A DNA stretch of 64,000 bases from Gymnopilus junonius (taxonomy: Eukaryota > Basidiomycota > Agaricomycetes > Agaricales > Galerinaceae). Made by a program: the position numbers and the translations under genes. Shown here piece after piece: positions 41,460 to 64,000 of the stretch (position 1 is its first letter; each line of letters starts with the position of its first letter). The notes beneath the pieces were generated by a model. It made no database searches and was not told the origin of the DNA. It saw only the letters and a program-made list of their open reading frames with translations. The DNA lies in the NCBI GenBank assembly GCA_015501075.1, contig JADNYJ010000072.1:123671-187670 (forward strand). The letters run 5' to 3'.

Positions 41460-42214
41460 TCCTGCACACCCTTTGCATACGCGCGACCCACACGCCCACG
41501 GGACAAATAACGGTCATGTGCATGCCATGTGATGTTGATCCAAGAATGAAGAACAGCAATTGATGTGTGGGCCCTTCTGACTGGAAGGCCTCAATCTCGG
41601 TCAAAATTTGGTCTTCCTTTGAGCTTGAAGTTTTGCTAATGAAATTAGCACCTCCTCTGCTGGATCATTTAATTTCTCAGACATTTACCCCAATCCAAAT
41701 GATTACATGGGAATTTATTAGTCTTATAGGAAGCCCACACTATAGATGAAGTGTCATGACTTCCTGGGGATCAAAGCTTGTGTAAATTATTCTAAAGACT
41801 TCTGAGATGCAAGACTCATGATATCAAAGAAATTGTCTGCCTAGCACCTCAACAAGTGGTAAGTACAGATTGCCTTATTGATGAGACTGAACCTTGACAT
41901 GCCCAAGACATGCCTTCGCATGCCCGGCACGTTGTAAGCTGATAACCGGTTATCACCGAGCGTCCTTCGGCCTTGACGCTTGGCAAAGCTAGTTTTCAAT
42001 CTCCGATCTGCCAGGCACATCGCCATCTCAAAATGATAGAAGACGTCTTCGGGAACACAGTTTATCAGAATCTCAACGTTAATTATTCGAGAACGTTTTT
42101 GACCACTATTTGCACCATACATCAGTGAGTAACAGAGCGATCAATTCTCCATTCCACCGACCCATAATGAGGGTCTCCCTCATAAATATCTTCCCTCCAA
42201 GTCACTTTTTGAGA
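41460..42214. other. No supported gene
   Basis: Short frames only. It contains the hairpin TGAGGGTCTCCCTCA at 42168-42182, which recurs at 58242-58256. Confidence 0.5.
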
Positions 42215-42261
42215 ATATTGAATCCAGAAACTCATTCAGCGGACTCAAAAAAAGCTTTTAA
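42215..42261 (+). pseudogene. Remnant of the 3' end of an F-box gene
   Basis: CAGAAACTCATTCAG (intron end) followed by a short exon coding GLKKSF and TAA. It matches the last intron and exon of the F-box gene at 47996-49892 in inverted orientation. No upstream exons are present. Confidence 0.6.
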
Positions 42262-43890
42262 CTACTCTGAATAATGTTGGTGACAAATTCCTCGACTATA
42301 CACTTCTCTAAACTAAGTTGACTTACACCTTCAGTGAATCCACCGAGTCTTTGCATCCAGTAGGTCTGGATGCATTCTTGAAATTTTTCTAAAAGGTCAT
42401 TGATAATAAGCGCATACCTGGCTGGTCTAGAGAAGACATAGTGAAAATGGCATCAATGCTATCGGGAAGCTGCTTGACAACACATCTCGCAATTATATGG
42501 GAGGACCTTGTCAGGCCACCGGAAGCATTAAATTGTGGATGACAGTAATCATAATGTATTGGCCCTGTACACACTTTGGATGGTTTTGAATGGCATTCAC
42601 TTAGGGTTACTTATCTCCAGAACACATTGGGTCAAGAAAAACAAAATAATCCATTGAATTTATGCCTCCCATACATTTAAATGACTTGCAAGAAAGATAA
42701 TACGACATTCAATACACCTGATGGCTGACCCATTGGCATGGCGGACTGCAGCATGAACAGGTCAACTTTGCACTGACCATCGATTTTCCAGCTTTCACCT
42801 GGAAGCGCCTTTCGTGCTTATGCTCATTGACCACATCAAAGTAGACTGCGTCGATCTCACTGGGTCCTACGCAGGTGTTGAAAAGGTGACGAATAATGGG
42901 ACCATCGGGTAATTGACCACGATAGGTAAAGCTCAATGTCAAAAGGTTCTTGAAGGCTTTCATTGCTGAAAGCACATTGCCTATCATTTCAGGTCGGAGA
43001 TCATCTTTGTGTAGGGCATCGATGGCTATCACAAGGCGGTTAGGGGCGCCTTTGAATGCAGTAAAAAAGTCAATGAGAAGTCCATCGAAAACATGGACCC
43101 CTGAATGAATAAATTGTGAGTTGCAGTGCATACATCAGACAGTAACTTACCTTGCTCCAATGCAATTGTCACATATTTCAGGTTGCGAGCAGATGAGATA
43201 AAGCGAGCCAGTTCCGAATGGATCTGGCGGGAGCCAGTGGAGGTGCAAAGACAATGTTCAGCTCCCGGAGGACATTGAAAGCGCAAGGGCGCATGTCAAT
43301 CAAGTAAGAAGCAAACCATTTGTCGACTGTGAGGGTGTGGAGTTAAACCAGGTAAGTGTTGACGGGCAGTATCATTGGCTTGAGGCTTGGTGCGGTATTC
43401 GTGAGCATGATAGAATGAAGACGTTGCTGGAATATGGTTAAAGGAACCTCACCGAGATCGATAAGCTCAACCTCTCCGTCTACAGCATGCTTCAATAAAG
43501 ACACCACGGCGGTGAGAACTGCGTCTCGGCGCTCAACCTCCACCTCGTAGCGACTATGATCCCACATAATCCTTAGTTTGACGATCTTAGATGGCGGATT
43601 GGGCAAAACATATTGCGGATCAACTCGATTTTCTTTTCATCGACGTCCGCCGTCAGGGTAATGTTGAGGCTGTATGCATCCCGAAGTACGTGTGTCTGGG
43701 TTTCGGCGCTGAGGACAATGGTCAGCCCTGTCATTTCATCGCTGGAGGTGGAAATAGCGACGTGGCGGAAGAGAGCTTTCTGATTCGTGAGCCGCCGGAT
43801 GAGGGCTGTGGTTCTGGGATCACCAGTATCAGCACGGGCGATATGGACAAGGGTATCGGAGAGGACCATGGGGGAAGTGGGAACAGACAT
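42258..43890 (-). pseudogene. Leucine-rich, F-box-family-like gene, frame-broken
   Basis: Minus-strand gene starting MSVPTSPMVLSDTLVHIARA at 43890. Exon blocks follow with SKIVKLRIMWDHSRYEVEVE, CAFNVLRELNIVFAPPLAPA, RNLKYVTIALEQG, a 50-base intron (GTAAGT...ATTCAG), VFDGLLIDFFTAFKGAPNRL, AFKNLLTLSFTYRGQLPDG, and final short exons ending EKCIVEEFVTNIIQSS with a stop at 42258. The reading frame must shift near 43615, 43215 and 42790 to follow the coding sequence, so the present copy is probably inactive. The stop codon overlaps that of the F-box remnant on the other strand at a shared TTAA. No exact family; the pattern is leucine-rich like its neighbours. Confidence 0.5.
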
Positions 43891-44240: not shown

Positions 44241-46018
44241 CGTATTTCTTCTCAATATATTTCTTTCTTTTCTCTCTCTCTACAAATCAATCATCTGGAC
44301 GCGATCCCAGGCTTCTGTTCTTGTATGCAGGCCATAGACTTATCTTATCGGTCCACGGATCATTTTTCGATTCCCGCTCCGACTTGTCTACCGCTTCCAG
44401 TGTAGCGAGTGCTGTGGATTGTGGCTACCATATTCTGTCACTGTCCCCAGTACCCATCATTTTTGTAGTGATGATGTGGTATATATCCTTTTAGCTTACT
44501 CATACATGAGCTTGAATCCATCCAGATATAAAACTGGACTTTCTTTCGGTTCTCTTTCTCTCTCCGTCACAATGACCCTTTCTCATTATCTGGAATCTGA
44601 CGGTACTCTGCTATCTCAGCAGAGAGACTATTTTATGACCAAGAATATATTGTTTGATATTCCCGAGCTCATCAGGAACCACACTCCTTCACGTCGAGGT
44701 CGCCTTTGAACAAGTTTTATTCCATCCTGCATCTCGATAGCCAAAGGAGACCCATATCATCGACACTGTTCTCCCTTCTTTCTCAACAAAACTGGATATT
44801 AGTTATGTTTCCAGAGTGGAACCAACAATGGAGCGATTTTAGGTATGAATATCAGGTGATTGAGAGGTTAAGAATGACCTTGAGGCTTAACTGTACTTCT
44901 TTGTGAGCAAATGGGCTTTCCATTCACTGAGTGGGTGCGGTACAAGTCTCTAGAATTTATACTATAGCTACAAGAATGATTATTCTACCATTCAAGTGAG
45001 AGAAACTTTATGAAGCACATGAGCTCCTGGAACTTATGAGAGAATTTTTTGTATATATGCACTTGTCTGAAAGTTGTTGTCAAAATAAGCATGGTGGTGG
45101 GTGATAAATAAGGTGAAGAGCGACCATAGAACCATGTGGTGAATATGGTCAAGCGTGTATTGACTAAAGAGGGTCACCTTGACACCGCGCACATCGACCT
45201 CTGTTTTATCCCTCCCTACTGCCGCCTTCTACCACCCAGGTTGTTGGATTCCTCTGCCGCCACCCTCCCTCGTGAACGATTTGTGGTCAAAAACATCCGG
45301 TAGCAAAAAAAAAAATAGATTAGTACGGAAAATCACACAACTAAGCCTGTATCGACTACCTAGGACAACCTTCCTCCATTTTCTGTTTCCTCAGTGGGTC
45401 GGTTGCTCTCATTTCAGGTGACCAGGGATGCCAACCGCACCTGCGGACGCTACCTTTATATATGAACTATGGGATAAATCCCACTATGTGTGATAAATCC
45501 AGCCCGAATTAATCCCAACTCCCTTCCCTCTAATAGTACGCCCTACCTGTAGGAGGGCTCGAGGATGGGGCAGGTGGTGGTAAACAACCATCAACATGCC
45601 TGCCCATGATGGAGGCGCAGTGGTCGCGCCGTTGCTCGTCGTCGACAGCACTTTTCATCAGGGAAAAAAACACATTCGAAATCCCCGATTTTTTATACCC
45701 AAATCAGTCGTTTGCGCGTTCAGGGAGGGGTGGACGGAGGAGGATGGGTTTGGATAATGCTCTAAATATTGCTGTACTTTGGGACAACATGTATTGTAAT
45801 GACATCATGTAATTGATCTCCGCTTAGAGCAGTCCATGCATCCGTTCGGATTTAATTAGGCGCTCCAAAGTAATTGTCCCGCGCCTGATATTGGTGGGCT
45901 AGATTCCCATCTGGTAGGTCTCTCAATAGATAATCCTCCAATAATATTTAATAGATTACCTTTGTAAGTAACTAAAAGTATATTGGAAGTATTTTTACAT
46001 TCAAAGACGAAGAGGGAA
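44241..46018 (+). repeat. Left arm of large inverted repeat
   Basis: Every position x from here to 46018 pairs with 92204-x on the other strand; small ORFs mirror one another (44419/47785, 44706/47498, 45179/47025, 45606/46598). One substitution (45324, Arg/Trp in the mirrored frame) was seen in the stretches I compared. It contains short frames (for example 44572-44709, MTLSHYLESDG) without recognisable family. No transposase motif seen. Confidence 0.9.
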
Positions 46019-46185: not shown

Positions 46186-47963
46186 TTCCCTCTTCGTCTT
46201 TGAATGTAAAAATACTTCCAATATACTTTTAGTTACTTACAAAGGTAATCTATTAAATATTATTGGAGGATTATCTATTGAGAGACCTACCAGATGGGAA
46301 TCTAGCCCACCAATATCAGGCGCGGGACAATTACTTTGGAGCGCCTAATTAAATCCGAACGGATGCATGGACTGCTCTAAGCGGAGATCAATTACATGAT
46401 GTCATTACAATACATGTTGTCCCAAAGTACAGCAATATTTAGAGCATTATCCAAACCCATCCTCCTCCGTCCACCCCTCCCTGAACGCGCAAACGACTGA
46501 TTTGGGTATAAAAAATCGGGGATTTCGAATGTGTTTTTTTCCCTGATGAAAAGTGCTGTCGACGACGAGCAACGGCGCGACCACTGCGCCTCCATCATGG
46601 GCAGGCATGTTGATGGTTGTTTACCACCACCTGCCCCATCCTCGAGCCCTCCTACAGGTAGGGCGTACTATTAGAGGGAAGGGAGTTGGGATTAATTCGG
46701 GCTGGATTTATCACACATAGTGGGATTTATCCCATAGTTCATATATAAAGGTAGCGTCCGCAGGTGCGGTTGGCATCCCTGGTCACCTGAAATGAGAGCA
46801 ACCGACCCACTGAGGAAACAGAAAATGGAGGAAGGTTGTCCTAGGTAGTCGATACAGGCTTAGTTGTGTGATTTTCCATACTAATCTATTTTTTTTTTTG
46901 CTACCGGATGTTTTTGACCACAAATCGTTCACGAGGGAGGGTGGCGGCAGAGGAATCCAACAACCTGGGTGGTAGAAGGCGGCAGTAGGGAGGGATAAAA
47001 CGGAGGTCGATGTGCGCGGTGTCAAGGTGACCCTCTTTAGTCAATACACGCTTGACCATATTCACCACATGGTTCTATGGTCGCTCTTCACCTTATTTAT
47101 CACCCACCACCATGCTTATTTTGACAACAACTTTCAGACAAGTGCATATATACAAAAAATTCTCTCATAAGTTCCAGGAGCTCATGTGCTTCATAAAGTT
47201 TCTCTCACTTGAATGGTAGAATAATCATTCTTGTAGCTATAGTATAAATTCTAGAGACTTGTACCGCACCCACTCAGTGAATGGAAAGCCCATTTGCTCA
47301 CAAAGAAGTACAGTTAAGCCTCAAGGTCATTCTTAACCTCTCAATCACCTGATATTCATACCTAAAATCGCTCCATTGTTGGTTCCACTCTGGAAACATA
47401 ACTAATATCCAGTTTTGTTGAGAAAGAAGGGAGAACAGTGTCGATGATATGGGTCTCCTTTGGCTATCGAGATGCAGGATGGAATAAAACTTGTTCAAAG
47501 GCGACCTCGACGTGAAGGAGTGTGGTTCCTGATGAGCTCGGGAATATCAAACAATATATTCTTGGTCATAAAATAGTCTCTCTGCTGAGATAGCAGAGTA
47601 CCGTCAGATTCCAGATAATGAGAAAGGGTCATTGTGACGGAGAGAGAAAGAGAACCGAAAGAAAGTCCAGTTTTATATCTGGATGGATTCAAGCTCATGT
47701 ATGAGTAAGCTAAAAGGATATATACCACATCATCACTACAAAAATGATGGGTACTGGGGACAGTGACAGAATATGGTAGCCACAATCCACAGCACTCGCT
47801 ACACTGGAAGCGGTAGACAAGTCGGAGCGGGAATCGAAAAATGATCCGTGGACCGATAAGATAAGTCTATGGCCTGCATACAAGAACAGAAGCCTGGGAT
47901 CGCGTCCAGATGATTGATTTGTAGAGAGAGAGAAAAGAAAGAAATATATTGAGAAGAAAATAC
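46186..47963 (-). repeat. Right arm of large inverted repeat
   Basis: Reverse complement of 44241-46018. Its outer end abuts the F-box gene junction at about 47964; the two arms differ by one T at the outermost edge. Confidence 0.9.
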
Positions 47964-47965
47964 GA

Positions 47966-47999
47966 GGGATTGGTCACCAACATTTTTCAGAGCAGTTAA
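47966..47999 (+). pseudogene. Remnant of the 3' end of the leucine-rich gene
   Basis: Codes EGLVTNIFQSS and TAA on the plus strand, matching the end of the gene at 42258-43890 (EEFVTNIIQSS). It is cut off on its 5' side by the inverted-repeat arm. Confidence 0.65.
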
Positions 48000-49892
48000 A
48001 AGCTTTTTTTCAGTCCGCTGAATGAGTTTCTGGGTCCATTAATCCTTTCATATATAAATATAGCTTACATGGCTGCCAACCGCTGAGAGACCTCCTTCCA
48101 CAGGTGGATCCTTTCGAAAGCGGCTGAGGGGGATCCCTGGCTGTCAGAAAGCAGAGGAAATACCACGCCACTTGAAAGAATGCAGTGGGGGGGTAGCAAT
48201 TGGGAAAGGAAGGTCGAGGTGCCCACAACGGATTCTTGCGAGATGATGGAAAACCCCAGATCAAGCTGTTTGAGCGAAGAAAATCTGCAGAGGGGTAAAA
48301 GGTTACTTGTTACAGCAGCGCCACCTGTGGAGAGCTTGTGGCATTCCCGGGTATCGATGAAGATTCTGAGCTGCAGAAGCTTGGGACACCTCATGGCGAA
48401 TGATTTGAGAGACGCCAGCGTCAAGTTGGATTGATTGATCGCTGTTGCTGCTGCACCCAAGAGAAGTGTTTCAATCACCGGCCATGATGACGCAAACTTG
48501 TCAACTTCAGAATCTTTCAGGGCGAGGGGTTGATGGTGGACAATGTTTAAAGACAATAATGCCATTAACTCGAGTAAAGATTTGAGATGGTCGAAGCTGA
48601 GGCTGGCATTTCTTTCTTCCTCATGCACTCCCATTTGTAGAATATTCTTGTCACAGGAAGAAACCAGCCCCAAGTCCTTGAGAAGCGGAAAGGCCGTGAC
48701 GATATTGGAGAGAAATGCATAAACAGAGGGTGGCTTTTCAAACTCGTCAGATTCGACATAGATCCAGGACAAGTGGCTGGGTTCATAGTGCAAACCATAA
48801 AACCTCGAGGCATCCCGGTAATTCACAGACATATAAAGTCGCTGTAGATCCGGAAACGCCCCTTCTGTGAGGATAGGGCAGAAGGGCTGAAATTCGAGAG
48901 GGGATTCCTCAATCAGATCCGGGTAGTGCTCGAAGTCTATGATCTACACTTTTGGCAAAGTGGATATGGTTTCTGCCACCTGGGAAGTAAAATATTTGCT
49001 AGGAAAGGTCACCCACTCCAGCTTTTTGAAAGAACCTAATGCGTTCACCATGCTTCCTTCCACCTCGTCCACCGGAAAAAAGATCTGAATGTCGAACTTG
49101 CGGACATTGGGCATGAAAGTTTGTACTGCCTCAAACAACAAGCGAGAGGCTGATCTATCAAGCTCCATGTAGGGAAGGAGTGTCAAATTCGTGACTGTTG
49201 AGCTTGAAAGTAATGAAAGGAATTTTGGAGGCGCTCCCCACGATAGGGTGTGTACCCTTGGTAATAAACATTGATGCATCTGAGTTCTCGACATCTCGGC
49301 GACGGCCGACTCGCACAGCGGGAAGTAGGTGCATGTTAGACGACGAACTCGCCTAGCGTAGTGTTCAAATCGAGCCCAGTCTGTCTGTATCAGGCAGCGC
49401 TCAAATTTCTTTTCAGCCCATGTAACAAATCAATGAAATGCTGACATCGCCAAGGTTAGGACTCACATAATCCCCCATGGAGTCATCGTCATTTTCTTGA
49501 AGATCCCCCAGGAGCTGAAAAAGGCAGAAAGTATCATCCAGATCCCACCACAGAACATCGAGCGCAACGTCAGACCACCCTCTGCAAACTCTAGCACTGA
49601 CTGCAAGAGTAGCTGGATCCATCTGCATGAATAACAGCCCAAGTATTTCAAAAACTTCAAGAGCACGATGCTGTGGGTGGGTGGGCGCTATACCATCTGA
49701 AGAATGTCCAACTTTGTCTGCCAAAGTGGAGTAGTGGGACTCCCGTCCATCGTTCACCAGCGGCAGTACCTGCAATCTACATCAACATGCCAAAGGGAGC
49801 TTCTAGCATCTTATGAGACTTACTGTTGTCAAGTGCCTCCCTGGCGCTGTGGAGCTTGCGCTCCGGTTGCGCATGGAATTAGTCATTTTCAT
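47996..49892 (-). CDS. F-box / leucine-rich protein with one in-frame stop
   Basis: Four exons on the minus strand: 49892-49824, 49769-49467, 49408-48069 and 48017-47996, in phase, 577 codons. F-box at about residues 59-95 (RALEVFEILGLLFMQMDPAT and RVCRGWSDVALDVLWWDL). Then FEHYARRVRRLTC, typical of the family, and a leucine-rich solenoid (LLPRVHTLSWG, STVTNLTLLPYMELD, FSSLKQLDLGFS). A TAG at 48946-48944 interrupts the frame after STLPKV; the frame continues unbroken on both sides for hundreds of codons, and the family would allow Gln here (CAG to TAG). Treated as a single nonsense change in an otherwise complete gene, or an error. Role as an SCF adaptor is inferred. Confidence 0.72.
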
Positions 49893-50599
49893 GCTCACAA
49901 CGGATGTATGAAGATCCAGGAATTGAATGGTCGCTAGACGACCACAGGCAAGTTATTCCACCACTCAATTCATTTTATTTTTAGACACCTATGCATCAAC
50001 TAACAGGCGCTCGTCGATCTCTCGTTGTCGAGCTCCCTACTTAAAAAGGACTCTCTGAGTCATTTCTATCTCTTCATCTTTATCCCTTCGAAATTTTTAA
50101 AAGAAAATTTATTAGCTAGTTAGGTATAAAAACCTGTAGTAGCTAGCCTTTTCTTTAGCTCGTATTCGGAGGATTTAGCTCACCCTCACATTTACATTCT
50201 GCCCCGAGTTTGGCAGCAAGCAGAGTCGCAAGTTCAGACTCACATTTATTATTCAAATTCTCTATCTACCTATGGAATTGTTTGGGTAGCGACTGACGGA
50301 GTCACCGCCTTACTCTGCCCTTGGGATTTCCCCTCGTCTTATACCGTTCCCACACAGAACGGGTTGTTTACAGCGCCCTTCCTGAGCAATTGACATGAGA
50401 AAGAGCTGTAGCCTGTAGAGAAAATGCAGCACCCACCGCCAGTGGCATTTTTACAAGTTTGCTGCAAAAGAGGAGTTAAGTCAGGTATCTTCAATGTAAG
50501 GGCGGAATATAGATGTACGCACCTTTGTACGAGCCATTTAGGGTTCAAAATATGGTGGCTGCACACAAAAAAGATCTCGTTTCTATCTTCAGTCCGTCC
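49893..50599. other. No supported gene
   Basis: AT-rich intergenic sequence; short frames only. Confidence 0.5.
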
Positions 50600-50740
50600 A
50601 CAACTCCCAACGAACTGGTAGGCCGGGATATCTGAGTTTAAATCCCCGTAGCGCGCGTTTCCCACACTTTTTGGCTGAGGCAAACGACTTTGGAATAGTA
50701 AAATTCGACCAACCCTAAACTCTCACCCGCCTCATTCTTT
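50600..50740 (-). repeat. Inverted repeat flanking helicase, left copy
   Basis: On the minus strand it shares AGTTTAGGGTTGGTC and GCGCTACGGGGATTTAAACT in the same order with 52125-52186 on the plus strand. The block includes a run resembling a Pol III B-box (GTTTAAATCCC). Confidence 0.55.
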
Positions 50741-51118
50741 ATGATTCCCAAGACCGCCGCCGAGATTCTTGCTGCTGAAAGGCCGCCACCTCCTAAGGCA
50801 CCTAGGAAAAGACGCGCACCGAAACAGCCACCGCCATTCAGTGCCCAAATGTCAGAATTTTCCGCCACGGAACCTATTTCAAATGCTACGGAACAACCAA
50901 AACACCAAAATCACAACCGCTTTTCTCTTTTGGTTCCACCTGACTTGTGGAGGGGTTTATATTCGAGCCCCCTGTGTCTTCAGAATCTTTTGAAGGCTCT
51001 CACAAACTGGCTTTGGGCAGGGATAGCGAGGGCGTGAGGGGTCTTAATGAGGATTTAGAGAATATGTTCAGGGTTTTCTTTCCTGTCTTTAATCGGTATA
51101 TTCCAATCAATATTTCCT

Positions 51119-52020
51119 TTAGCTTCTTACATTCGCTTCATCCGAGTTATCATGAAAGATGAGTGTCTTTGGCAGATGGAAGTCAGTGGGATATGGGGTA
51201 GGAATGAGGAAGTTCAGATTCTGGATGTCCGATAGCTTGTTAACAATTTGGTGAGTAGCGTAAGTGATATTAGGTCGATTACTTGAAAGCTTTATTGAGT
51301 AAAGTTTTGATTTGTCAAAGAGCAAGCACTTAATGATAGCTTTTTTGATATGTTCTGGTTGCATTCCAGAGAGAGCCTGCACAACAACGTTCTTTCCAAG
51401 TTTAATGCGAAATTCACCAAGTCTTCCCCATGCTGGATGGAAGGCAGGTAAATCGTAGTGCTCAAGCCCAGTGCTAGGCATATGCCCATTGTTCATAAAG
51501 AGTTGTTCCGGCTGAACGAGAAGAGCCGAGTAACCTCCGTTTGTGATGCTCTGGGTCATGAAGAGGGTTATGACAGTAAGTATACAGTATTGTTCTTGAG
51601 GCAAACCTTCCAGAGATCCTGGTCATGGGGTGTGTCCTCATTTATAGCAACAGCCTTGACATGATAGTGCTCAAATTCAAGGACTTGAACAATTTGCAAT
51701 TGCTTGAGAGGATAAAATATAACAGAAATAGTCCTTGGAGATAGCAGACAGGGTAGAATCATGCAGAGAGTTTTGCCCTTTCCAGTACCAACGTCGATTA
51801 AAGAGTCTTGTCCAGACATTGTCACTATTATTGCACACAGTTGAAATTCCCGAGGTATCATACAAGACCCAGATATAGTCCAGAGCAAAAGACAGCTTCG
51901 AATACCAACATGGAGTTGCTTTTCGTCGAATACAGACCAGAATTCCTGGGCAGGAGCGAGTTCAGCTGGCAGATTGCGTATATTTTCGATTGCTTCACGT
52001 AGAGAATCTGTGGTAGGGTC
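51119..52020 (-). pseudogene. RecQ-type DNA helicase, truncated and missing DEAH segment
   Basis: Minus-strand frame with the motif I / Walker A region of a RecQ-like helicase (MSGQDSLIDVGTGKGKTLCM), then LPCLLSPRTISVIFYPLKQL. An intron (51605-51549, GTTTGC...CCCAG) leads to YSALLVQPEQLFMNNGH, then LPAFHPAWGRLGEFR, VVVQALSGMQPEHIKKAI, SNRPNITYATHQIV and PKTLIFHDNSDEA. Between MNNGHMP and LEHYDLPAFHP the family normally has a stretch with the DEAH box; here the two blocks are almost joined, so motif II is deleted. The protein also ends before the second helicase domain, and no start is evident. Helicases of this kind are spread with transposons in mushroom genomes. Confidence 0.7.
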
Positions 52021-52109
52021 AATAACAACGTCTTCTCATAAGCTATACGCCTTACGGCGCGCCGAATGCGCGCGGACTGTACGAGGGAAGACGCGACGCG
52101 ACGCGCCTG

Positions 52110-52200
52110 GCTGAGGCGAAGTTTAGGGTTGGTCAGATTTAATGGTTCTTAGAAATACTTGGAAGAATGAGCGCTACGGGGATTTAAACTCATATACCCC
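52110..52200 (+). repeat. Inverted repeat flanking helicase, right copy
   Basis: Counterpart of 50600-50740 in opposite orientation. Followed by a self-complementary stretch (CTGTCTATCGACAG and CTTCATAGACAG). Confidence 0.55.
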
Positions 52201-52443
52201 AGTCTGTCTATCGACAGATTACAGCTTGCTGTCCTTCATAGACAGATCGGCCTCCGGTCTAACGAATTGGCAGGGGAAATGCCATTAAGTATGTGAGGCA
52301 GGTAACGTGATGAAGCACCGCAAAAGTTTGAGACCACATCATGTGATGAATGAATGGCTGAGTGTGACTCAATGTCATACCCTGTCACACTTACACTTCA
52401 TTTTGATCTGCATCTGCCTTTTCCTTCACCTCGCAATACTACT

Positions 52444-55400
52444 ATGTCTGCAAGCCCAACCAATTCCTCTCATCTTAATTTGGGGATTTTAAACAGCCCT
52501 ATAAAATTTCCCACTGGTTCTCCGATGCGCGTAATCTCGGATCAACTCAGAAATGGGCCTTGGACCACCCAGGCGTTGCTTTCAACCCATACACTTACTG
52601 AGCTTTTGCCCTCTGATCACAGTTTTGCGGTACGTAAAGTTTTAAAATTGAAATATGTAAATTTAGACATGCCATTAGCCCTTCTTGAAGAAATTGAACG
52701 CTTTTGAGGAGGCCCTTCTCACATCTAGCCGTCCCGAAGCCAAAGAACAGCGGAGAGCAGTCCAGCTCTCCCTTTCAGAATCCAACACCTTAGGTGCTGC
52801 AACTTCTCGTGTTTCTGATGGAGACAACGCATATTGGGGACTAAGGGCTGAAATAACCATGGTTTATCGCCTTGCTGACATCCTGCACAATATCTTCTCA
52901 CCTGACAAAAGCAAAGCTCCCATCCGACCTGGGACACAACAGCCACTAGGCCGGGTACGCATTTTATTCCAAGTAATTTACAAAAGGCTGAAATTCTAGT
53001 GAATCAGAATTGGAAGACTCTGGAAGACTGGCCACTATTGCTTACATCGCTTCCCGATTTAGTCGGAAAAACATTGGCAGAGATCTCCTCCCTGGATGTA
53101 GAAGACAGCACTGACAATCAAGATTACCTCCTCCGATGGAGTCGCTTCTGCACAACGAAAAGGAAGGGTTTGAAGATCCTTTCAAACTTCATTGACGTGG
53201 CTAGCATCATTGCTGGATTTAATAAGCCAGATGAAGAAGGCGCGCTGTTAAAGCGAGGTAACAGATCTAATAGCTTGTGTGTTACATATTAATTCCTATT
53301 CTCTGAAATTAATGTTTCTTCATTGCAGAGACTCGGTTGAAGCGGATAAAGCAGATCAACAAAGGCGATTGATTCTCCTTCACGCATTATTCATCAGCCC
53401 GCTCTGCCTATTTCAAGCGAACAAGACGGCATTCACCACAGGCAAACATGCCCTGATTCAGGCAGGTGTCTTTTTTCATTGAGAGTCATGAGCTGATTGA
53501 TTTTTTTCAAAGGCTTTTGAGAGTCTAGGCAACGAAAAACCCCCTCTTATTGTAGAAGTTGAACAAATACTCTGGCTACTCATTCTCAAACTGTCATCAA
53601 GGGAACTGAAGCCTTCAGATTTCTTGGCCAGCTTATTGAAAGCCCTCCCAGTGGAGAAGGTGCAAAAATGTACACCTGACGTTAGGCAGTGGTTCATCAG
53701 AGGTAATTCCATTATAGCTTTGTCTTTCTATAGTAATTTCACAAGCCACAGGATCTCATCCCATTCCTGAAATTGGACTCGGTCAATCAGAGCCCAGCAA
53801 TGGTAAAGGTCACCCTTATTTTATCTCCACTATCACTGTCTCACTTGAGTGCATCCTGGCCAATACAGCCTCAACTACCACCATGTCTAATGCAAAGTCA
53901 TTCTCAAATAGACAAAGAAAGTCAGCTGAATCAGAGAATTCCATCGGACTAGCCCAGGCGCTCAACGCAGCATTTAATGCCAATGCAATGGAGAGCGGTG
54001 ACCATATTTCTCCAAGTTCTCCTGTCGTTGAAGAGATGGAAACTGACGCTCAGACCACCAGCTTCAGAGGTGCGGCTCTTTTTTCTGGTAGGTAGCCTAT
54101 AAATGGTCTGACCCCTTTGAAAAATGTGCAGTTTCAGAGCAGGGAGACTCATCTGATGAGAAGGAAGTTGAGGATGAGGTTCTCGGTGCCCAAATGGACC
54201 TCAACCAAGAATGCCTCCCTATGAATGACCAAGTTATTTACTTAACAGCAGCTTCAGGCCAGACCACAACAACAGGAAATGCACCTCCTCAGCCATCAAA
54301 TACACCTCCAGTGGGCAATGCTTCAGTTCGACCCATTTTAGCCCCCACTCCCTCCCATCCAAAGCGAATTACAGATGGTGCTCCTTCCAGCTCACCTTCC
54401 CAAAATGAGAGTTCAGCGAAGTCGACCTCTATCACCCCTTCCAACGGCGCAAAGCTCTCATCAAGAAAGCGCTCCTCTGGGAGGCGAGCTGACGCTCCTT
54501 CCGCGCCACCCTCCGACGACAAGAGTTCAGACAATTCCAATGAAAGGTCTACCTCTGTCGCCTCTTCCAACGGCGCAAAGCTCTCATCAAGAAAGCGCTC
54601 CTCTGGGAGGCGAGCTGACGCTCCTTCCGCGCCACCCTCCGACAATGAGAGTTCAGAGAGTTCAGATGATTCCAATGCGAAGTCAACCCCTATCGGCCCC
54701 TCCAATGGCGCAAAGGTCTCATCAAGAGAGCACTTTTCCAGGAATTCCACCAAGGGTCCCTCACTTTCCTCTTTGAAGCCTTCCAAGCCAGCTCTTGCAT
54801 TTTCCAAACAGCCTCCCAGGACAGGTGCAGTGAGAAAGAAAACCCCAAGGTCTGCAGAATTGCGGGCCCAGATTGTTGGATTGGCCAGCAAGAAGAGAGA
54901 GGTGATTGACCTCACAAAGGCTGAGGTGATTGACCTGACAATGGATTTGGAGAAGGTTTGTTTTGAGCTTGGCTGAAATTATTTTGTAGTGGGAAAGGGG
55001 TCACTAACTGTTTAACAACCTCTTTAGGACCTTCCGCGACCAAATGATCTTCCTAAGGGTAACTTCAAAGTGGTGAGTTGATTCCTGCAGAAAAATAGCC
55101 TGTTTCCCTTTGAAATTCAACTTCTGTTGAAGCTGCGTGGGCCTGAGATAAAAATACGTGGTGCGAAAGAAAATGGAGATGTGAAAGTTACGCCTCGCTT
55201 CCATGTAAGTTGATGATTTTGCTTTCAGCACTTTCTTTAACCATTTCCCCAGTTTCAAAACAATTTGGATGCTTTCATGAATATCATCAAAGTAGCGCAG
55301 GCCGTTCAGGATTCTGATGAACCAGGGGGAGTGAAAATATTATCCAAGGAGGAGTTTGAGCATAGCTCAACAAAGGAGCTCCAGGACATTTTCTCGACGC

Positions 55401-57039
55401 ATAACCTGCTAATAACAGGCAATAAAGCTGCGAATAAATACCCTCACTTTGGCGCCGAAGAAATAGGGAAGCTATTTAGACGTACTCAAGCGATAGAGGT
55501 CAATGGTAATCACTTTCTTAATGAAGGATGAATGCTTCGAGTGCTGATCACATATGCTTGACAGACATGAGCGTGGATATATATGATGAAAGGTCGAATG
55601 CCGACGTGGGGACAAAGAGGCTCAGGTTAGTCAACCGAGCGGAAATCCTTCATCAGTTCAATCAGCCCGATGGAAAGGCGTTGAATGCCCTTAGCATCGC
55701 AGCTGTAAACAGGGTCCACTTACCCTTCCAGCTAAGCTCAGACAACCATGCATGGCAGATGACGGTGGGGCTTCCATTGTGCAAAGGCACGGAGCCTGAA
55801 CTGGTCCACGAGTTCCATTTTTCTTTGGTGGCAACCGCGGGTGCTCACAGTGACTGGCATTGCGATGCTGAAGGCGTCGCAACCATGATAGAGATTAAAA
55901 ATGAAGAAGGAAAAAAGCTGTGGGTTATAGCAACACCACCCAAATCTAACCCAGACTTCGCTAACATCGACACTTTTCTGGGGGACCTGGACGTCGGCCA
56001 GGTGAACGATGACAGATGGAGCATGGTTGTCATTCCCCTAACCGCTGGAGATATGCTGTGAGTCGTAACCAACCTCAATTTTGATCAAAACTCAGTCTTT
56101 GAAGCTTGATGCGGCCAAATACACCACATTATGTCTTTACACCTACGCCCACCATTGCTCATGGTGGTCATTTCTTGGCCACCTCAACCATAAGGCAAAC
56201 GTGTTACGGGCTCATACACACCACACTTTCTGGTCACCTCATTACAAACACCACTCACGCAGAAAAATGTAGAAAGCTCCTTGGACGTTTGGTTTCTTTT
56301 TATCATGAAGAACTCCTAGAGGTTACTGCCGATCCAACTCCCGGTGCGCCATAAAATTATACCTGAAATTTTAGACTACTGATGATACATAGACCACCAC
56401 CTCATAGAAATTGGAACAAAAAAAGGACTAATTGACTTCCTCACCCTTTACAATGCCGTCACCCTTTTCCCGGTCTTCTCAGCCATTTCGAGCAATGAGC
56501 GCGATATTCGTGAACCCCTGAAAGACCAACATAACTGGGAATTATCACAGAATAACTGCGCGGAGATCCTCTCCTGGTTCCAAGAACGCTACGATGTGTC
56601 TATGGGTTCCATGATGGTTCCCCCAAGCGAAATTCGGACACAATATCTCTCTGGTCAAATCAGAGCGATCCTGCGCTATCAAGAAAAACTGGATGCAAGC
56701 GATTACGACACAAATGCGACAAATGCGCCAAATGCTACCAAGGTGCTCAAGGGCATGCAGAGCCGGCTTGCCATGCTGGTCGAGCTGATCGAAGGATTCC
56801 TTGAGGACGGAGCGTCACATGTAGCCGCATACCGCCGGGCACTAATAGAGGATCCAGAAGACCCATATTTGAAAAGCTTTGCTTGGTCTGAAGACATGGG
56901 ATTAAATGTCTCCTTGAAGAAAAAGCTGAAAGGTACGTGCTTGAGACTCCCAAATATAAGTCTCTCACTATATCATTCAGGTCGTCACTCTACGGAGCAT
57001 AATATGCAACGGTCGGAAAAAAGGGCTCGTGGGGCCTGA
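52444..57039 (+). CDS. JmjC-domain protein with tandem SUMO-interacting motifs
   Basis: Fifteen exons in phase: 52444-52629, 52679-52954, 53008-53257, 53331-53461, 53513-53702, 53752-53802, 53869-54069, 54132-54955, 55028-55072, 55133-55204, 55253-55505, 55565-56057, 56105-56343, 56393-56932 and 56981-57039, giving 1269 residues. One donor (53462) is GC. The JmjC-like core lies at about residues 880-1030: SDWHCDAEGVATMI with His925 and Asp927, the strand GKKLWVIA, and LMRPNTPHYVFTP with His999, then HGGHFLATSTI. These would bind Fe(II) for a 2-oxoglutarate oxygenase. Residues about 500-640 hold tandem Ser/Arg-rich repeats (SSRKRSSGRRADAPSAPPSD twice, a third diverged), and residues 686-698 hold two VIDLT motifs, as in SUMO binding. 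No frame break. A chromatin or transposon-linked role is inferred. Confidence 0.8.
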
Positions 57040-58303
57040 AATTCAGGGCCTGTGAGGCCGCCTTTGTCGAGCTTTCGCCCAACATTACGCCAGCATTCGC
57101 ATTCCAAACATATATTCATATTTATTACTGTGTACTCCCATTTTTTATTTCAATGATTTGTTCGTGAAACAATGCCTGCATTTTCAACCAGAGAGGCCCA
57201 ACACGTTAGAAAATGATCTCAAAGACTATAATTAATTTGGTATTCCCGAGGAACTGAATGCAAAAACTACACTCCCTCCTCTGATACGGAGTGCATGCAG
57301 GGAATTTGCCAATCTTTATGCTGTGGATGTCCAACAATTATTTAGCGCCCAGTGCAGCTCGGTTTCTCAGCAGTTCCTGTATTTGTGGGGGGCTAGTTGC
57401 AAGACGCCGTCAGTTAGACTTAACGTGTGGCGCGTGGAATGATGGCTCCAGTCGACATGTCGTTGGAGTGCTACCGCTGATTCATACTAACGCCTGTTGG
57501 AAGAAAATCACTGGAGGTATTTCTGGGTAGAAGATGCCTTCTTCACTTAGTCAGTTTTTAGAAGACCCCAGAAACATTTTACCTATTCGAACCGACAAAC
57601 TGCTAGAGTTTCTCTCACAACCTCTGGTGGGTGTCAAATATATTTAGTGCAAAAGAAAAAAAAAAGAATTAGATGAAGAGAAAACTACGAATGCTCATTC
57701 AGATTAGGCATTTGAAATGCAGTAAGGTGCGTCGAGTTCGGAACGAGTCCTGTATTTGACTCGGTGGCAAACTCCATTTGCTAGAGGTCCAGAAGCATAG
57801 TTTAGAGTTGATAAAATCGAAGTAAATCGAAAATATAAATGCTCAGATGATAATAGAGCTTCTTAGCCAGTAAATGGGTGCTAAATTCGATTGTTAGCCA
57901 CTGTACAAAGGTTTGAAGTATTTATACTGTAGCTAGAATATAAAAACGAGTTGGATTTGAAACAGGAGAGTAGGAGAAAAGCTATGAAAAGGTGAATAAA
58001 ATATGATATGGACCTGTGCTTGCTGCGCAAGAGGGCACCGTATCAATTATTATGCTCCGAAATGAAATAGAGAGGTCACGGGTATGGTACAAATCAAAAA
58101 TGTGTGCTATGCAGACAGGAACAAAGGTATAAAACTACGGAAAATGGACCAAGAACTCAGTCAGTACATATTTGGAAATTGATGGAGGGTAGCGCATCGA
58201 TGAGCTGTGATGATTAAAATCTCCATGTTACAGACCCAAACTGAGGGTCTCCCTCACACATTATCTAAGTAAAATATTTACAGAAGCTCCAGCTAATGCT
58301 ACG
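57040..58303. other. Region between convergent genes, one open stretch
   Basis: 57250-57440 on the plus strand is open without an ATG and looks coding in places (LIRSACREFANLYAVDVQQL). It could be a gene fragment. The rest is AT-rich. It holds the second copy of TGAGGGTCTCCCTCA at 58242-58256. Confidence 0.35.
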
Positions 58304-60636
58304 TCAGTCGAAGGTGGTAAGCATAGATACTACTTCATTCATCTCCTCCATGTTGACGTCGACAGTGTGGACTTGCTGGGAAAATGCCAGGTTCACTTGC
58401 TCAGCCGAGCTGATGGAGCCCGACATCCCGGCATTCCTGGCCTCAGTCAAAGTGTTGAAGCCCATTTCAGACCCATGGTACATGCTTGCTTGGTTGAAAA
58501 ACACCAGGCTTCCTCTTCCTTCGTCTCCTTCTCCGCCAAGAGGTGTCGAGTTTTCGGGAGTGGGCTTCTCACCATCAGTCAGAACGAACCTGATATCTAA
58601 AAGAGGCAATGAGCTTGAGACTTAGCTGCAAGAAAAGGCGTCACTCACCTTCAACATCAATATTAAAATGATATAAGAGAGAGGAGGGGTAGAGGAAGAC
58701 CACCCACGGAGGGAGCTCTACCACGACGCCCGCCTCCCAAAGGACGAGCCAAGCTTTCTTCTGGTGGTTGAAAGCTTTGCCTTCCAAAAGAAGTCAGTGT
58801 CTGAGATGAAAAAGTTCCATTTGATTTGCTTACCCGGGATGACGTAGACCACGATAGCGCAGATGCCTATGATATTCTTTGCGTCTGCATGGGGGGAGGT
58901 GAAGATGCGCTTCTGCCCAGAGAACATGCCATTGATGCAGAAGTTCCAATAGAGGCCAAAGAGAGGCTTGATGTCATTCCTCTCCTTGTGCCATAGCGCA
59001 GATTTTATGGCACGAAGGGCAACACCAGGGAAAATGGTGATGATGAGCCTAGACACTAGCTGGCTGAAGGAAGGTGAGCTGCATCGATAGCACAAACCTG
59101 GCTAGACACTGACCTCAGCCTCTGAATAATGGGGCTTTCACAGAATTTCTTTACCGCGTCCACATTCTGGATGTGGAACTGAGTCAAAGTTGGTGCCTGT
59201 GAAGGTGAAAATCGTTTCAGCCTGCTGGGTCCGTAGCCCAAGAAAGCAGTTACCTTGGTGTACTGTTGGTGGTGGCCAATGACGCAGGGGAAATGCGGGC
59301 CACGGGACCCATTCGCATGCTCAGCAGCCAGCTTGGGGTTGTCAAGGTGTGGTCGGAGTACACTTTCAATGGCGGAGTGCAGAGCGTCGGCGTTGTCTTT
59401 GATCCAGTCGAACTGGGTCGTTCGATACCCAAATGTTCTTAGCTCCCTGTCGATGAGAAGGGCTGGTTTCGGCTTAGACCTGAGAGAAATGAGCATCCTG
59501 TTTCGGAAATGTTTGGAAGGGGAGCACTCACAGGCTGTAAGAGATTGGGTAGAATTGCTCACCCAGGATCTGCTTAATTCTCCCCGACTTCCATAACAAG
59601 GTTATCTCCTTCCTGCTCTGAACAGACGGAGCCCTGCCGTGCCAGCCAGTCGATACGTAGGATCCATCTTCAACAGTGCTGAACTTCTGACTGATGTGAA
59701 GAGCTCCAGTCTGGTAGGCTCTCATGGCGAGAGATAGGTGTTTCGCTATGAAACCGTTCCCTTGGGCAAGCTCATTCACTGCCCTGGCTCGAACTCCGCC
59801 CCGTTTGCTGCGCTTAGGAGCAGATGCATTGCTTGGGGGCGGTTGGAGGGAGCTGACCTTTTCCAGAAAATCACGCATGATCGACGTGCCTTCAGTGCTC
59901 AAAAGAGCAGCAGCTCCCCCTCGAAGGTTGAAATTGTTGGCATCAGTCGGCTCATCTTCAACGCATACGCCTAGCTTCTTCGCCTCTTCGAAATAGACGG
60001 GGAGCGTACTCGATAGGGAAAACTCCGACCAGTAGGTCGAAGACGCATCCTTTTCCTCCTGTGAACTCTCCGCCGCCGTGCTCATCGCAGCTGGCTCCGC
60101 GACTCGCCTGTGTGTGGGCGAAGAGTCCTCCTGTGCGCTGCTTGCTCGGCCTGACTCAAGGCTGTCCACCGCCGGGCTCATCGCAGCTGGCTCCGCGACT
60201 CGCCTGTGTGTGGGCGAACAACCCACTGGCTTCTGTCGAGAGTCCTCAAGTGCAGCAGGCTCCGCACCGAGAATCCTCGTTTGAGGCCAGTTGAGGCAGG
60301 GAGGGTCGGGTTTTGACGCCTCATGAGCACCAACTCCAGAGCTCTCAGGTGCAGCTGGCTCCGCACCGAGTTCTCTGGAGGACTGGACTGCCAACGCAGC
60401 AGATTCGGAGGGGAGATGGCCGCGACGCAGAGCAAGGGCGTAAGCTGCAGTGGACACAGTTCTCACAGCCCTAGTCCGAAGGGGGTACCGGCAGGCTGAG
60501 TTGCTGGGTTCGACGAGCATTTCTGGGGCATCGTAGGGACGCATTCGCACCCCAGAGGAGAAGACGTTGGCTGTCACGACAATGAGAAACTGCCGTCTTG
60601 AAAGCCACGCAAAGACTTACGTGGCACTTTAGGCAT
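58304..60636 (-). CDS. TET/JBP-like 2-oxoglutarate/Fe(II) dioxygenase
   Basis: Seven exons on the minus strand: 60636-60621, 60570-59532, 59479-59254, 59196-59114, 59063-58834, 58780-58649 and 58596-58304, in phase, 672 residues. The N-terminal half is disordered and contains repeated SPTHRRVAEPAAMS and LGAEPAA units. The C-terminal half fits a double-stranded beta-helix oxygenase: FTSPHADAKNIIGICAIVVY with His512 and Asp514, AWLVLWEAGVVVELPPWVVF, and LLYHFNIDVEDIRF with His569 and Arg578. The HxD...H...R spacing (about 57 residues) is that of the family, and the ELPPW/YPSSLLYH block resembles fungal TET/JBP proteins, which oxidise 5-methylcytosine or thymine in other lineages. The short first exon was accepted because it restores phase. 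No breaks. The substrate is inference. Confidence 0.7.
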
Positions 60637-61113
60637 TTCGACGCGACTAAACGGTGGGCAGTTGAAAACGACAATGAGAGGGCCTGAGACAGTGAGACAG
60701 AGAGATGAGAAAGTAGCAGGCTGACGTCGAACGACAGTACTGCCACGAAAACCAGAGCCTAGCAAAGTTCAAACACGAGAAAAAGGCTTCCAAAACGGGA
60801 CGCGGCGCGGCACTGTGCGGCAGAAGATGTTGCCAAATATAAACAACGCGATCACGTCCTGACTTGGAAATTACGATCGAGAAGACGTCTTCTTACTCTC
60901 TCCTCACCCTCCTCTACCCTGGTAATCCTCGAACGCCGCACCCGTAGACGCAGTGCCTTCTTTGAAAGGAGGTCTGCTTCTCTCTTCCCCCACCTACTGC
61001 TCCCACTCAACTCTCTCCTGGCAGTCCTGGAACGACGCTTTAGTAGTCACAGTACCTTTCTTTGAAAGAAGGTCTTTGCAGCCCTACACTATCACATAAA
61101 TACTGTCATTACT
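60637..61113. promoter_or_regulatory. Shared divergent promoter with imperfect tandem repeat
   Basis: This 477-base interval separates the divergent starts at 60636 and 61114. It contains two related units (about 60919-60980 and 61018-61080) with CCTGG, AATCCTCGAACG / AGTCCTGGAACG, and TTCTTTGAAAG.AGGTCT in the same order. Confidence 0.45.
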
Positions 61114-61792
61114 ATGTCTGCAGTAGCTTCAAGTACGCGTTACGACTCCTTGCCTCCTTCGTCCCAATCACTGACTACCTTTTTTGCCCTTAGCTGTCGA
61201 CGTATGTGCTAAGAAGACGTCGGAGGGAGATGGTATGAGCTTTTCATTCCCGAATCTAGCTACTTTCTGACTTACTTCCTTTTACTCTCAAGATCCACAA
61301 ACGTATTTCGACAACCGCGTCAAAGTTACCTCGAAGAACACCCACATTTACCGCTCCTTCTTCTCCAACAAAACTCCAGGAAACCGCCACGCCGCCACCG
61401 GGACAATTTGGTTCACCTCTCCCTACTATAGGGACGATGCCATTACTGCCCGCGCACTTAGCTCTTCTCGAGCCGATTTTCAGCACGTACTCGATGGTGC
61501 GGAGCTTTTTTATCGAGAAAATGAGGGCTGGAAATCCGTGCCTCAGGATCTCGTTGGGCAAAGTTTCACCAACATCCTACATCCTGGAGATAGTCGCTAC
61601 ACTGGATGCAAAGCGCCTGACTTGGAGGACTTGAGGTCTCTGAGTTCAGTGGAGTCCAAGAGAAAGAAGCGTACGGAGAAGCTAGGCTCCAGCGCTCACG
61701 CGTCGAAAATTGCGTGTCCAAGGCTCGATATCCAAACCCCCTTTGAAGCTCGACAACCAGGTTGGAAAATTTGGGGCATCCCCATCTGCTGA
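61114..61792 (+). CDS. Hypothetical protein, unrecognised
   Basis: Three exons, 61114-61132, 61194-61232 and 61293-61792, in phase, 185 residues. The last exon is coherent: YFDNRVKVTSKNTHIYRSFF, GTIWFTSPYYRDDAITARAL, LDGAELFYRENEGWKSVP, FTNILHPGD. After a Lys/Arg patch (SKRKKRTEK) the +1 frame also looks coding (QVGKFGASPSAEEDAGK) and leads to a donor at about 61808, so the true C-terminus may differ, or a frameshift may be present near 61740. It shares a promoter region with the TET/JBP-like gene. No family found. Confidence 0.5.
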
Positions 61793-62215
61793 AGAGGACG
61801 CAGGAAAAGGTATGCAGAGTTACTTTCAGAGAACATTTGAATGCCGACTTACATGATGCTCAGAGATGGAAGTCGAGTAGAATCTAGCAACAATGAAGTG
61901 CGTCAAGACATGTAAATGTCAGGTAGAGCCTAGCACTAGCAATGATGAAGTGTATCAAAACGGTATGAATCCTCTCTTTATTCTCTCTGCCCCTTTTGCT
62001 GATGCTCTGCTGCTTAGTTCCGCTTGCCCAGAATCAATGGATCGCCAGTCTTCTTGAGGAGTTCCAGTCTATGCCTATCTCTTGTCAAGCCTAACCAAAA
62101 AAGAGGAACTGCTGCCCTTCAGCTTTTGCTGAATATCAACTCCCTCTCTTACCTACTCCTGGCCAACTCCCAGTCTTTGTGGGTTTCGGAGAGGCCATCC
62201 TGAGAAGACCCCACC
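61793..62215. other. No resolved exon
   Basis: Contains an imperfect direct repeat (about 61876-61912 and 61923-61962, with GTAGARYCTAGCA and ATGAAGTG). The second unit would code EPSTSNDEVYQNG, so it may belong to an exon of a neighbouring gene. Confidence 0.35.
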
Positions 62216-63080
62216 ATGAAGGCATTCATGCAGGAGCTGAAGTCCTCTGAAGGCTGGCAAGGAGTCAACCACTTCACCGAAGAGGAAGACTGGGAAGTGA
62301 AGGCAAAAATGTCTCGTGTTTTTGGAACAGATGTCCAAACCCACTGGCAGGAGGGCGATCACTTTTTATCCGTCCTCAACTTCCCAATTCCAAACGTCAT
62401 TCGCGTTGCAAACCTGGCCATCCCGCTCTCTGGATCCGACCTCCCCACCAACTTCCACTTCTCAATGGAGGAGGGCGCTATACAACCTGGTTTGGGGCTG
62501 TTGTTCCACTCTCTGCCATCACCTCCTGCCATCTCGATGAGTGGGCGATGTCTTTATATCAATTCCACTGGCCGGAAAAAAGCTCTGGCTAGCTTGGCCT
62601 CGACGAAGAACAACTTCGGTATATGCCTTTTGGCTAAAGATGCACGGTAGCACCTCCCCATCGAAATCGCAATCAGCAGGCTAGAGGGCTTGAAGTTCTT
62701 CTGGTAGATACGAAGCAAGTGGCTTGGTCCCTCCCTCCCGCGACGCTGCACGCGGTGATAACTTTCTCTCGGACGGCCGCCCACATGAGTTCGTATTATG
62801 TCTCGTGGATGGCTTCAAGACCTCCAAGCTCGCCGTCTCCGTTCTGCTTGAGTGTTTGGGAGGAGACGAGATGGTGGCTTCAGAAGGCTCGGTGCAAGAG
62901 GCGTTCGACAACATACAACAATGCAATTTCATTGGCGAGGTTCCTGTTTGTCAGTCGGGTCGCCAGGAGGCGCTGAGGGCACTTAATGACCTTCACATGT
63001 CAAATCTTGCTTGCTGGGAGTGTTTAGCAGAAAAAATGAAGGACATGAGTTTGCTCGGCAAGGAGATCATCATTGGGTGA
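62216..63080 (+). CDS. Hypothetical protein, unrecognised
   Basis: Two exons, 62216-62646 and 62708-63080, with a 61-base intron (GTAGCA...TGGTAG), in phase, 267 residues. The start has a good context (CCACCATG). The protein seems globular: WEVKAKMSRVFGTDVQTHWQ, IRVANLAIPLSGSDLPTNFH, FNNFGIC-like, then after the splice EFVLCLVDGFKTSKLAVSVL, IQQCNFIGEVPVCQSGRQEA and LACWECLAEKMKDMSLLG. Both halves keep coding-like composition right up to the splice. No family recognised; it may travel with the neighbouring oxygenase genes. Confidence 0.55.
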
Positions 63081-64000
63081 AGAGGTGAAGAAAAGGCTCT
63101 TCCCCTCACCAGGTTAGAAGAGAGCTTGAAGAGGAAGACAGGTTGAACAAGCACTCTGCCTGAGGAAGACATAAGCATCTTTTTCATCTCAAGTCCATAC
63201 TGGTCTCTAAATCAAACCTGTCTTGTTTTCAGGAGGAAGGATGTCAAGATGTCTGACTCAAAATCCCCAAGAGATCAAGACATCTTCTACTAAAGAGGGA
63301 TGTACAGCTACCACTGCCTGCCCATCCTTCCCTCTGTGGACAAACGTCTGTGTCATACTTTAAGCTCATTTTTTGCGTCTTCCTAGCCCCTTAAATGTGT
63401 ATATAGATCTTGGTATTCTTTCTACTTGTATATAATCTTGTATACCCCCTACTAGCCTTCTAATTACATATATAGATTTTTCTAATCTTTCTACTTGTAT
63501 ATAGTTGCATATGCCCCTTGCTCTTAGTTCCTCTTACTTTTCCTATAATCTCTTCCATACTTCTGCCCTACCTTGTCATGTTGTCCATTAGAGCCTGTCT
63601 AATACACAATTGATATCCAGCTAATCAAAGTAAGGGCCACTTTCATTTCTGCCTCTGATACCTATGGTCTGCATCTTGTCCAAACAGCTGTTAAACTCAT
63701 CTGGCAATTGATGAATGCTGCATATCCACATTCTTCCACTTCCCCTGACACCTTCTCAACACTCAGCTGCTTCTTGACATCTGCCAGCCTCCCATATTTT
63801 CATGTCTTGTTCAGATTTTTTACAAATTTAATTCTTTCCCCTCAGAGGCTGGTTCATACACATATAGCACAACTGCATGAGTACTCGAACATATAAGGCT
63901 CTAGAAGCCTCACAGTTCATAGATAATAAATTTATTAATTGAATCATAAACTCCTCATTACATTTGGGTGTATCTATGAAAACTACTTTTGTCTTCTACA
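63081..64000. other. 3' flank, AT-rich, no gene
   Basis: Two related units of about 65 bases (63393-63457 and 63461-63520) share TATATAGATTT/C, TTTCTACTTGTATATA and a pyrimidine run. Otherwise nothing. Confidence 0.5.

Follow-up and report, generated by a model that had tools for sequence, protein, structure and literature searches.

Intact JmjC-type and TET/JBP-fold oxygenase genes at a contig end of Gymnopilus junonius, and a Helitron link of the JmjC-type family

Two intact oxygenase genes near a contig end

The stretch of DNA analyzed here (the window) comprises 64,000 nucleotides of Gymnopilus junonius, bases 123671-187670 of a contig (C690) of 187670 bases. Towards its right edge, which is the end of the contig 3.4 kb past the second gene, lie two genes that were predicted to encode Fe(II)/2-oxoglutarate (2OG) oxygenases, gene A of JmjC type and gene B with a TET/JBP fold. 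An earlier note on this DNA described them as intact and placed tail to tail about 1.3 kb apart, found no transposase, and proposed that they could belong to a chromatin-control cassette of a KDZ-type DNA transposon. We have examined each gene, its copies and relatives in the genome, and their association with mobile elements. The main features of the two genes are

52444..57039, plus strand: gene A, JmjC-type oxygenase, about 14 exons and about 1300 amino acids (aa); annotated as protein P0042, 1306 aa
55565..56343, plus strand: JmjC core of gene A by alignment with KDM2A, in two exons (55565-56057 and 56105-56343)
55858-55866, plus strand: HxD codons of gene A (H962 and D964 of P0042), read by eye
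56127-56129, plus strand: distal His codon of gene A (H1036 of P0042), read by eye
60636..58304, minus strand: gene B, TET/JBP-fold oxygenase, seven exons according to the annotated protein P0001, 672 aa

Both genes are open in their spliced models and both are annotated. The 14-exon model of gene A reads through 1298 aa, and P0042, on a contig of 187670 bases, is identical to it (100%) over the searched region. Gene A lies on the plus strand and gene B on the minus strand, with a gap of 1264 bp. The description of the arrangement thus stands, as does the lack of a transposase, since domain matches to KDZ, Plavaka and Helitron elements are all absent from the whole 187.7 kb of the contig (0 of the 79 KDZ matches in the genome, and 0 of the 29 matches to PF14214, Helitron_like_N).

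The core of gene A aligns with solved JmjC domains. It contains the HxD...H iron triad, and its best matches are the demethylases KDM2A and KDM7/PHF8, with which the HxD and the distal His align; about 110 residues are aligned and the similarity is low. The match to KDM2A has E = 0.002 with P0042 alone and 0.005 with a three-sequence profile, and E = 6e-7 when a metagenomic relative, P0045, was substituted in the profile for a second copy of gene A on contig C39. Unlike KDM2A and KDM7/PHF8, gene A has no match to the PHD, CXXC or F-box families at E = 1. P0042 matches no Pfam family at E ≤ 1 and does not reach the cut-off of PF02373 (JmjC), and P0045 matches PF02373 below the cut-off (E = 0.16). 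There are six PF02373 matches in the genome, none of them on C690 or C39, so the Pfam JmjC model misses the gene A family. Judged by its sequence, gene A is a JmjC-type Fe(II)/2OG oxygenase. Close relatives were few, numbering three among 7972 protein-database candidates scored, two of these being from G. junonius, and one among 6152 scored in a further search. Candidates had been preselected by shared words and length and capped in number, and the counts refer to those scored. A 126-bp tandem repeat is present within gene A at 54421-54657.

Gene B has the triad H513, D515 and H569 together with the C-terminal Arg R603. Across 41 homologues the triad is nearly invariant and R603 is invariant. 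The structure model has a TET/JBP fold, and Coprinopsis CcTET is the closest to it. The window is not among the 20 genome matches to Pfam Tet_JBP (PF12851). Searches of solved structures returned no matches, either with a profile of the 41 gene B homologues or with four other G. junonius oxygenase frames; sequence comparison therefore links neither of them to a solved TET structure, and it is the comparison of folds that does so. The four frames align with the gene B profile with an hhalign probability of 98% over 68 columns, and their Pfam matches are all sub-threshold (Tet_JBP for two, 2OG-FeII_Oxy_3 for two, and nothing for one). On the strength of its modeled structure gene B is a TET/JBP-fold oxygenase. 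Within its N-terminal region a 57-nt repeat recurs at a spacing of 96 nt (60066-60218).

Homologues of gene B occur across several Agaricomycete groups. An expansion of TET/JBP genes in fungi was reportedly described by Iyer et al. in 2014. The nearest known systems are CcTET and the AG-type transposon TET/JBP dioxygenases of Agaricomycetes, as presented by Kojima 2025 (PMC12730594). Gene B differs from both in that none of its 41 homologues matches the TET_JBP family at E = 1. It further differs from them in having one complete copy and no KDZ on its contig, and may or may not be of the AG type. The PE-type dioxygenases of the same source are similar in having a strongly diverged TET/JBP fold and in occurring in Agaricales. 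Their hallmark is HxE (PMC12730594, section 3.4), whereas gene B has HxD (PHAD in P0001), which is nearly invariant in its family.

Association of the JmjC-type family with Helitrons

We surveyed the assembly of 58.0 Mb in 898 contigs. A genome search with P0045 gave 36 JmjC-type matches. They fall at 23 loci, two of which are the window and C39; the loci are counted singly, and several may descend from a single element. Matches to PF14214 (29) were merged by hand into 24 Helitron loci; the 79 KDZ matches form 54 loci. The numbers expected by chance assume loci placed uniformly over 58 Mb, counting the first positions of clustered matches.

For nine of the 23 JmjC-type loci a Helitron domain match is no more than 10 kb away, where 0.19 would be expected. 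In eight of these nine the JmjC gene is upstream on the same strand, at 3.7-8.1 kb from the Helitron match. If that arrangement has a probability of 1/4, the chance of finding it in at least eight of nine is about 1e-4. At three loci (C220, C322:2580 and C591) the JmjC gene is on the minus strand less than 3 kb from the contig start, so that the assembly would not reach a Helitron lying downstream. Plavaka elements (71 loci) served as a control for the crowding of repeats, and none of the 23 JmjC-type loci is within 10 kb of one (0.56 expected), with two within 12 kb. Plavaka was rejected on this count as the element linked to the family.

On contig C127 the JmjC frames contain HID and a distal His. 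About 2.2 kb downstream of them is a 451-aa frame that matches DUF6570 (E = 3e-44) and stops where the PF14214 match begins. The PF14214 match itself contains one TGA, and the copy is therefore not completely open. Contig C143 repeats the gene order, with 60% identity to C127 over 73 residues of the JmjC protein and 71% over 241 residues of the Helitron protein. The preservation of order in the interior sequence at this divergence argues for a two-gene element. Between the C127 JmjC frame and gene A the match has E = 4e-12. When the N-terminal 451 aa of the C127 Helitron were searched by tblastn at E = 0.01, neither the window nor the 40 kb around the C39 copy gave a match; gene A thus belongs to the family but lacks a Helitron. 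Helitrons in general have 5' TC and 3' CTRR ends with a hairpin, and insert between A and T.

The TET domain has a different partner. PF12851 has 20 matches in the genome (11 over the cut-off), none of them on C690. For nine of the 20, KDZ lies no further than 10 kb away (0.37 expected), at a spacing of 3-5 kb, and the same is true of five of seven distant gene-B-like matches. Of the 23 JmjC-type loci one is as close to KDZ, against 0.43 expected, and the 22 outside the window all lack a TET or gene-B-like match within that distance. We rejected a KDZ cassette for the A-B pair on these co-location counts. Copies of the two genes identified by their domains were thus never found together, with one ambiguous case on contig C801. 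The general idea of a chromatin eraser carried on a mobile element is supported for the JmjC-type family alone and in association with Helitrons.

Two sites stand apart. The sole JmjC-KDZ neighbors are at C801:43501-53500 (L054), where a JmjC-type gene, KDZ and a 397-aa frame, which we take to have KOW-like repeats, lie in 10 kb. At C591:3-15799 the contig opens with a JmjC-type match; further along are matches to Helitron (11298) and TET (15575). The latter two are the sole TET-Helitron neighbors within 12 kb, making one of the 20 PF12851 matches.

Separate copies and surroundings of the genes

Each gene has copies elsewhere in the genome, and these are separate. The duplicated segments are

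51590..57038, plus strand: segment duplicated on C39, 98.0% identity outside gaps over an alignment of 5.49 kb, with sharp ends
60258..64000, no strand assigned: 5' end of gene B and upstream DNA, copied in pieces on C346 with 90-94% identity

The C39 copy of gene A has no flanks in common with the window, and gene B is absent from the 40 kb examined. An allelic haplotig was excluded as the origin of C39, as homology ends sharply on both sides. By eye, the ends of the duplicate show neither a terminal repeat nor a Helitron-like terminus. The copy has decayed: its exons carry single-base indels, there is a premature stop, and HCD has become HCN. In the gene A block 84 of 376 CpG sites of the window are TpG on C39, compared with 5 of 218 in the reverse direction. 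Pieces of the 5' part of gene A on C169, C801 and C149 all stop at window position 55123. Past this position they continue into the same foreign sequence (C169:16537, C801:148748 and C149:9456), which makes them a repeated derivative. The gene A fragment on C801 and a gene-B-like fragment beside it lie in DNA with a CpG observed/expected ratio of 0.07 (L040), next to a frame that is presumably Harbinger-like. The site resembles nested remains of mobile elements.

At the DNA level gene B recurs on C346 with no more than its first 379 bases and the upstream DNA, and gene A was not found in the 30 kb of C346 examined. Of the window CpG sites in this region 95 of 192 are TpG on C346, with 2 of 12 in the reverse direction, and the observed/expected ratio is 0.047 in the copy and 0.67 in the window. 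Protein searches of the genome with P0001 and P0019 found one complete gene B, that of the window, and otherwise short or distant matches. Genes A and B in the window are intact with a moderate CpG content, and the copies elsewhere are decayed. The window copies retain CpG sites that have been lost from the duplicates, which fits CpG methylation of repeats in G. junonius. The ratio is 0.83 across the whole window; it falls to 0.10 in the last kilobase at the contig end (63001-64000).

Two further features flank or separate the genes

57713..58258, no strand assigned: repeat of 546 bp with TG..CA ends, flanked on both sides by CATT
51571..52035, minus strand: DEAD-box helicase fragment (PF00270, E = 5e-7) upstream of gene A, mostly within the block duplicated on C39

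The 546-bp repeat has 24 other genome matches longer than 400 bp, and an exact 4-bp duplication flanks four of five other copies checked. It is most simply read as a solo long terminal repeat (LTR), before whose insertion the gap between the genes would have been about 715 bp. No terminal inverted repeats (TIRs) of 40 nt or more enclosing the pair were found in the window; Kyakuja elements are described as having no TIRs. An inverted repeat of 40 nt (85%; 50620-50659 and 52166-52205) brackets the DEAD-box fragment. Further left is a near-perfect inverted repeat of 1774 bp (44245-46018 and 46186-47959) with a 167-nt loop, inside inverted 82-bp arms of 89% identity (42213-42294 and 47963-48044). 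This could be either an assembly fold-back or a true palindrome. A Pfam scan of 10 larger frames elsewhere in the window, out of 40 with at least 130 aa, gave the helicase fragment and nothing else, and an NCBIfam scan of two frames gave no useful match. Rfam (50000-64000) and tRNA (whole window) searches gave no match.

Origin of the pair and relation to known elements

The explanation that we favor, and consider probable, is that A and B are unrelated intact oxygenase genes, chance neighbors in a repeat-rich contig end, with the gene A family linked to Helitrons. Gene A would have a histone lysine as its substrate, hydroxylating or demethylating it, whereas gene B would oxidize 5-methylcytosine or 6-methyladenine in DNA, as in their families. 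The Helitron-linked JmjC proteins would strip silencing histone marks from the chromatin of their own element and so help it to escape silencing, in parallel with the role proposed for transposon TETs. The copy of gene A in the window may have lost its Helitron neighbor or never had one, and its position beside gene B would be accidental. Several observations weigh against this explanation. Fourteen of the 23 JmjC-type loci, including the window, are more than 10 kb from any Helitron match. Structure prediction of P0045 from three sequences gave a predicted local distance difference test (pLDDT) score of 38, and gene A is for that reason called JmjC-type on sequence and motif, not fold. JmjC-type, Helitron and TET matches occur within 16 kb on C591, where the TET match is 15.6 kb from the JmjC-type one. 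On C801 a gene-B-like remnant of 55 aa lies about 1.2 kb from the 5' fragment of gene A. Lastly, the pair is preserved together while the copies decay, and joint use would predict the same.

The strongest competitor, which we nevertheless think rather unlikely, is that gene A is the upstream gene of a degraded Helitron whose Rep-helicase is lost, the rest having been separated by the arrival of gene B or the insertion of the LTR. The eight of 23 loci with a same-strand Helitron match 3.7-8.1 kb downstream and the similarity of the C127 JmjC frame to gene A point this way, but the C127 Helitron N-terminus finds no counterpart in the window or around C39, and no Helitron-like terminus was seen at the ends of the C39 duplicate. 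The two genes might instead be accessory genes of a KDZ or other DNA-transposon cassette, jointly stripping histone and DNA marks from the element, with the transposase lost or off the contig. TET matches do lie 3-5 kb from KDZ (9 of 20), three of the four frames that align with the gene B profile are within 10 kb of KDZ, and a partner to the right of the pair could be missing where the window ends with its contig. Yet KDZ, Plavaka and Helitron matches are all absent from C690, no other JmjC-type locus has a TET/JBP-like neighbor within 10 kb, and the genes were duplicated separately, with no terminal repeat seen at the ends of the C39 duplicate. We regard such a cassette as very improbable. 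Scarcely any probability attaches to A and B being domesticated host regulators kept adjacent by use, for instance as a methylation-sensor locus needing both erasers. The intact state and moderate CpG of both genes beside decayed copies, and the spread of gene B homologues over several Agaricomycete groups, would fit; the rarity of gene A relatives would not, and none of the 40 further gene B homologues is on a contig with the length of either of the two that carry other gene A homologues (114097 and 18007 bases).

Association of the JmjC-type family with Helitrons as a new transposon-borne eraser is credible. It is plausible, if tentative, that there is a mushroom Helitron lineage with its own JmjC anti-silencing gene upstream of the Rep-helicase, comparable to the TET genes of KDZ elements, and that gene A in the window is an intact, orphaned member of it, escaped or domesticated, which has brought a histone eraser and a DNA eraser next to each other. 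TET-positive Helitrons have been published, Helitron1 of Puccinia graminis and Helitron2 of Agaricus bisporus, and a role for transposon TETs has been proposed (PMC12730594). The putative G. junonius elements resemble these in being rolling-circle elements with an eraser gene as cargo; they differ in that the linked gene is JmjC-type, on the same strand and upstream of the Helitron protein. JmjC is not mentioned in the main text of PMC12730594. Helitrons of Pleurotus ostreatus carry the captured genes capA/B/C, of unknown function (Castanera 2014, PMC4289320), and so are likewise fungal Helitrons with extra genes; its main text nowhere uses the words JmjC, jumonji, demethylase or histone. Judged by titles and the openings of abstracts, we found no report of a Helitron-borne JmjC gene among the open-licence papers listed, a scope that leaves room for earlier publication of the link.

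The reading of the locus is corrected in that the A-B pair does not behave as a cassette. The JmjC-type family is one that ordinary annotation overlooks, being missed by the Pfam JmjC model. Fungal transposons with DNA-demethylase genes are already known, and a histone-demethylase-like gene repeatedly linked with Helitrons would extend this theme to histone marks. It suggests how rolling-circle elements might resist silencing.

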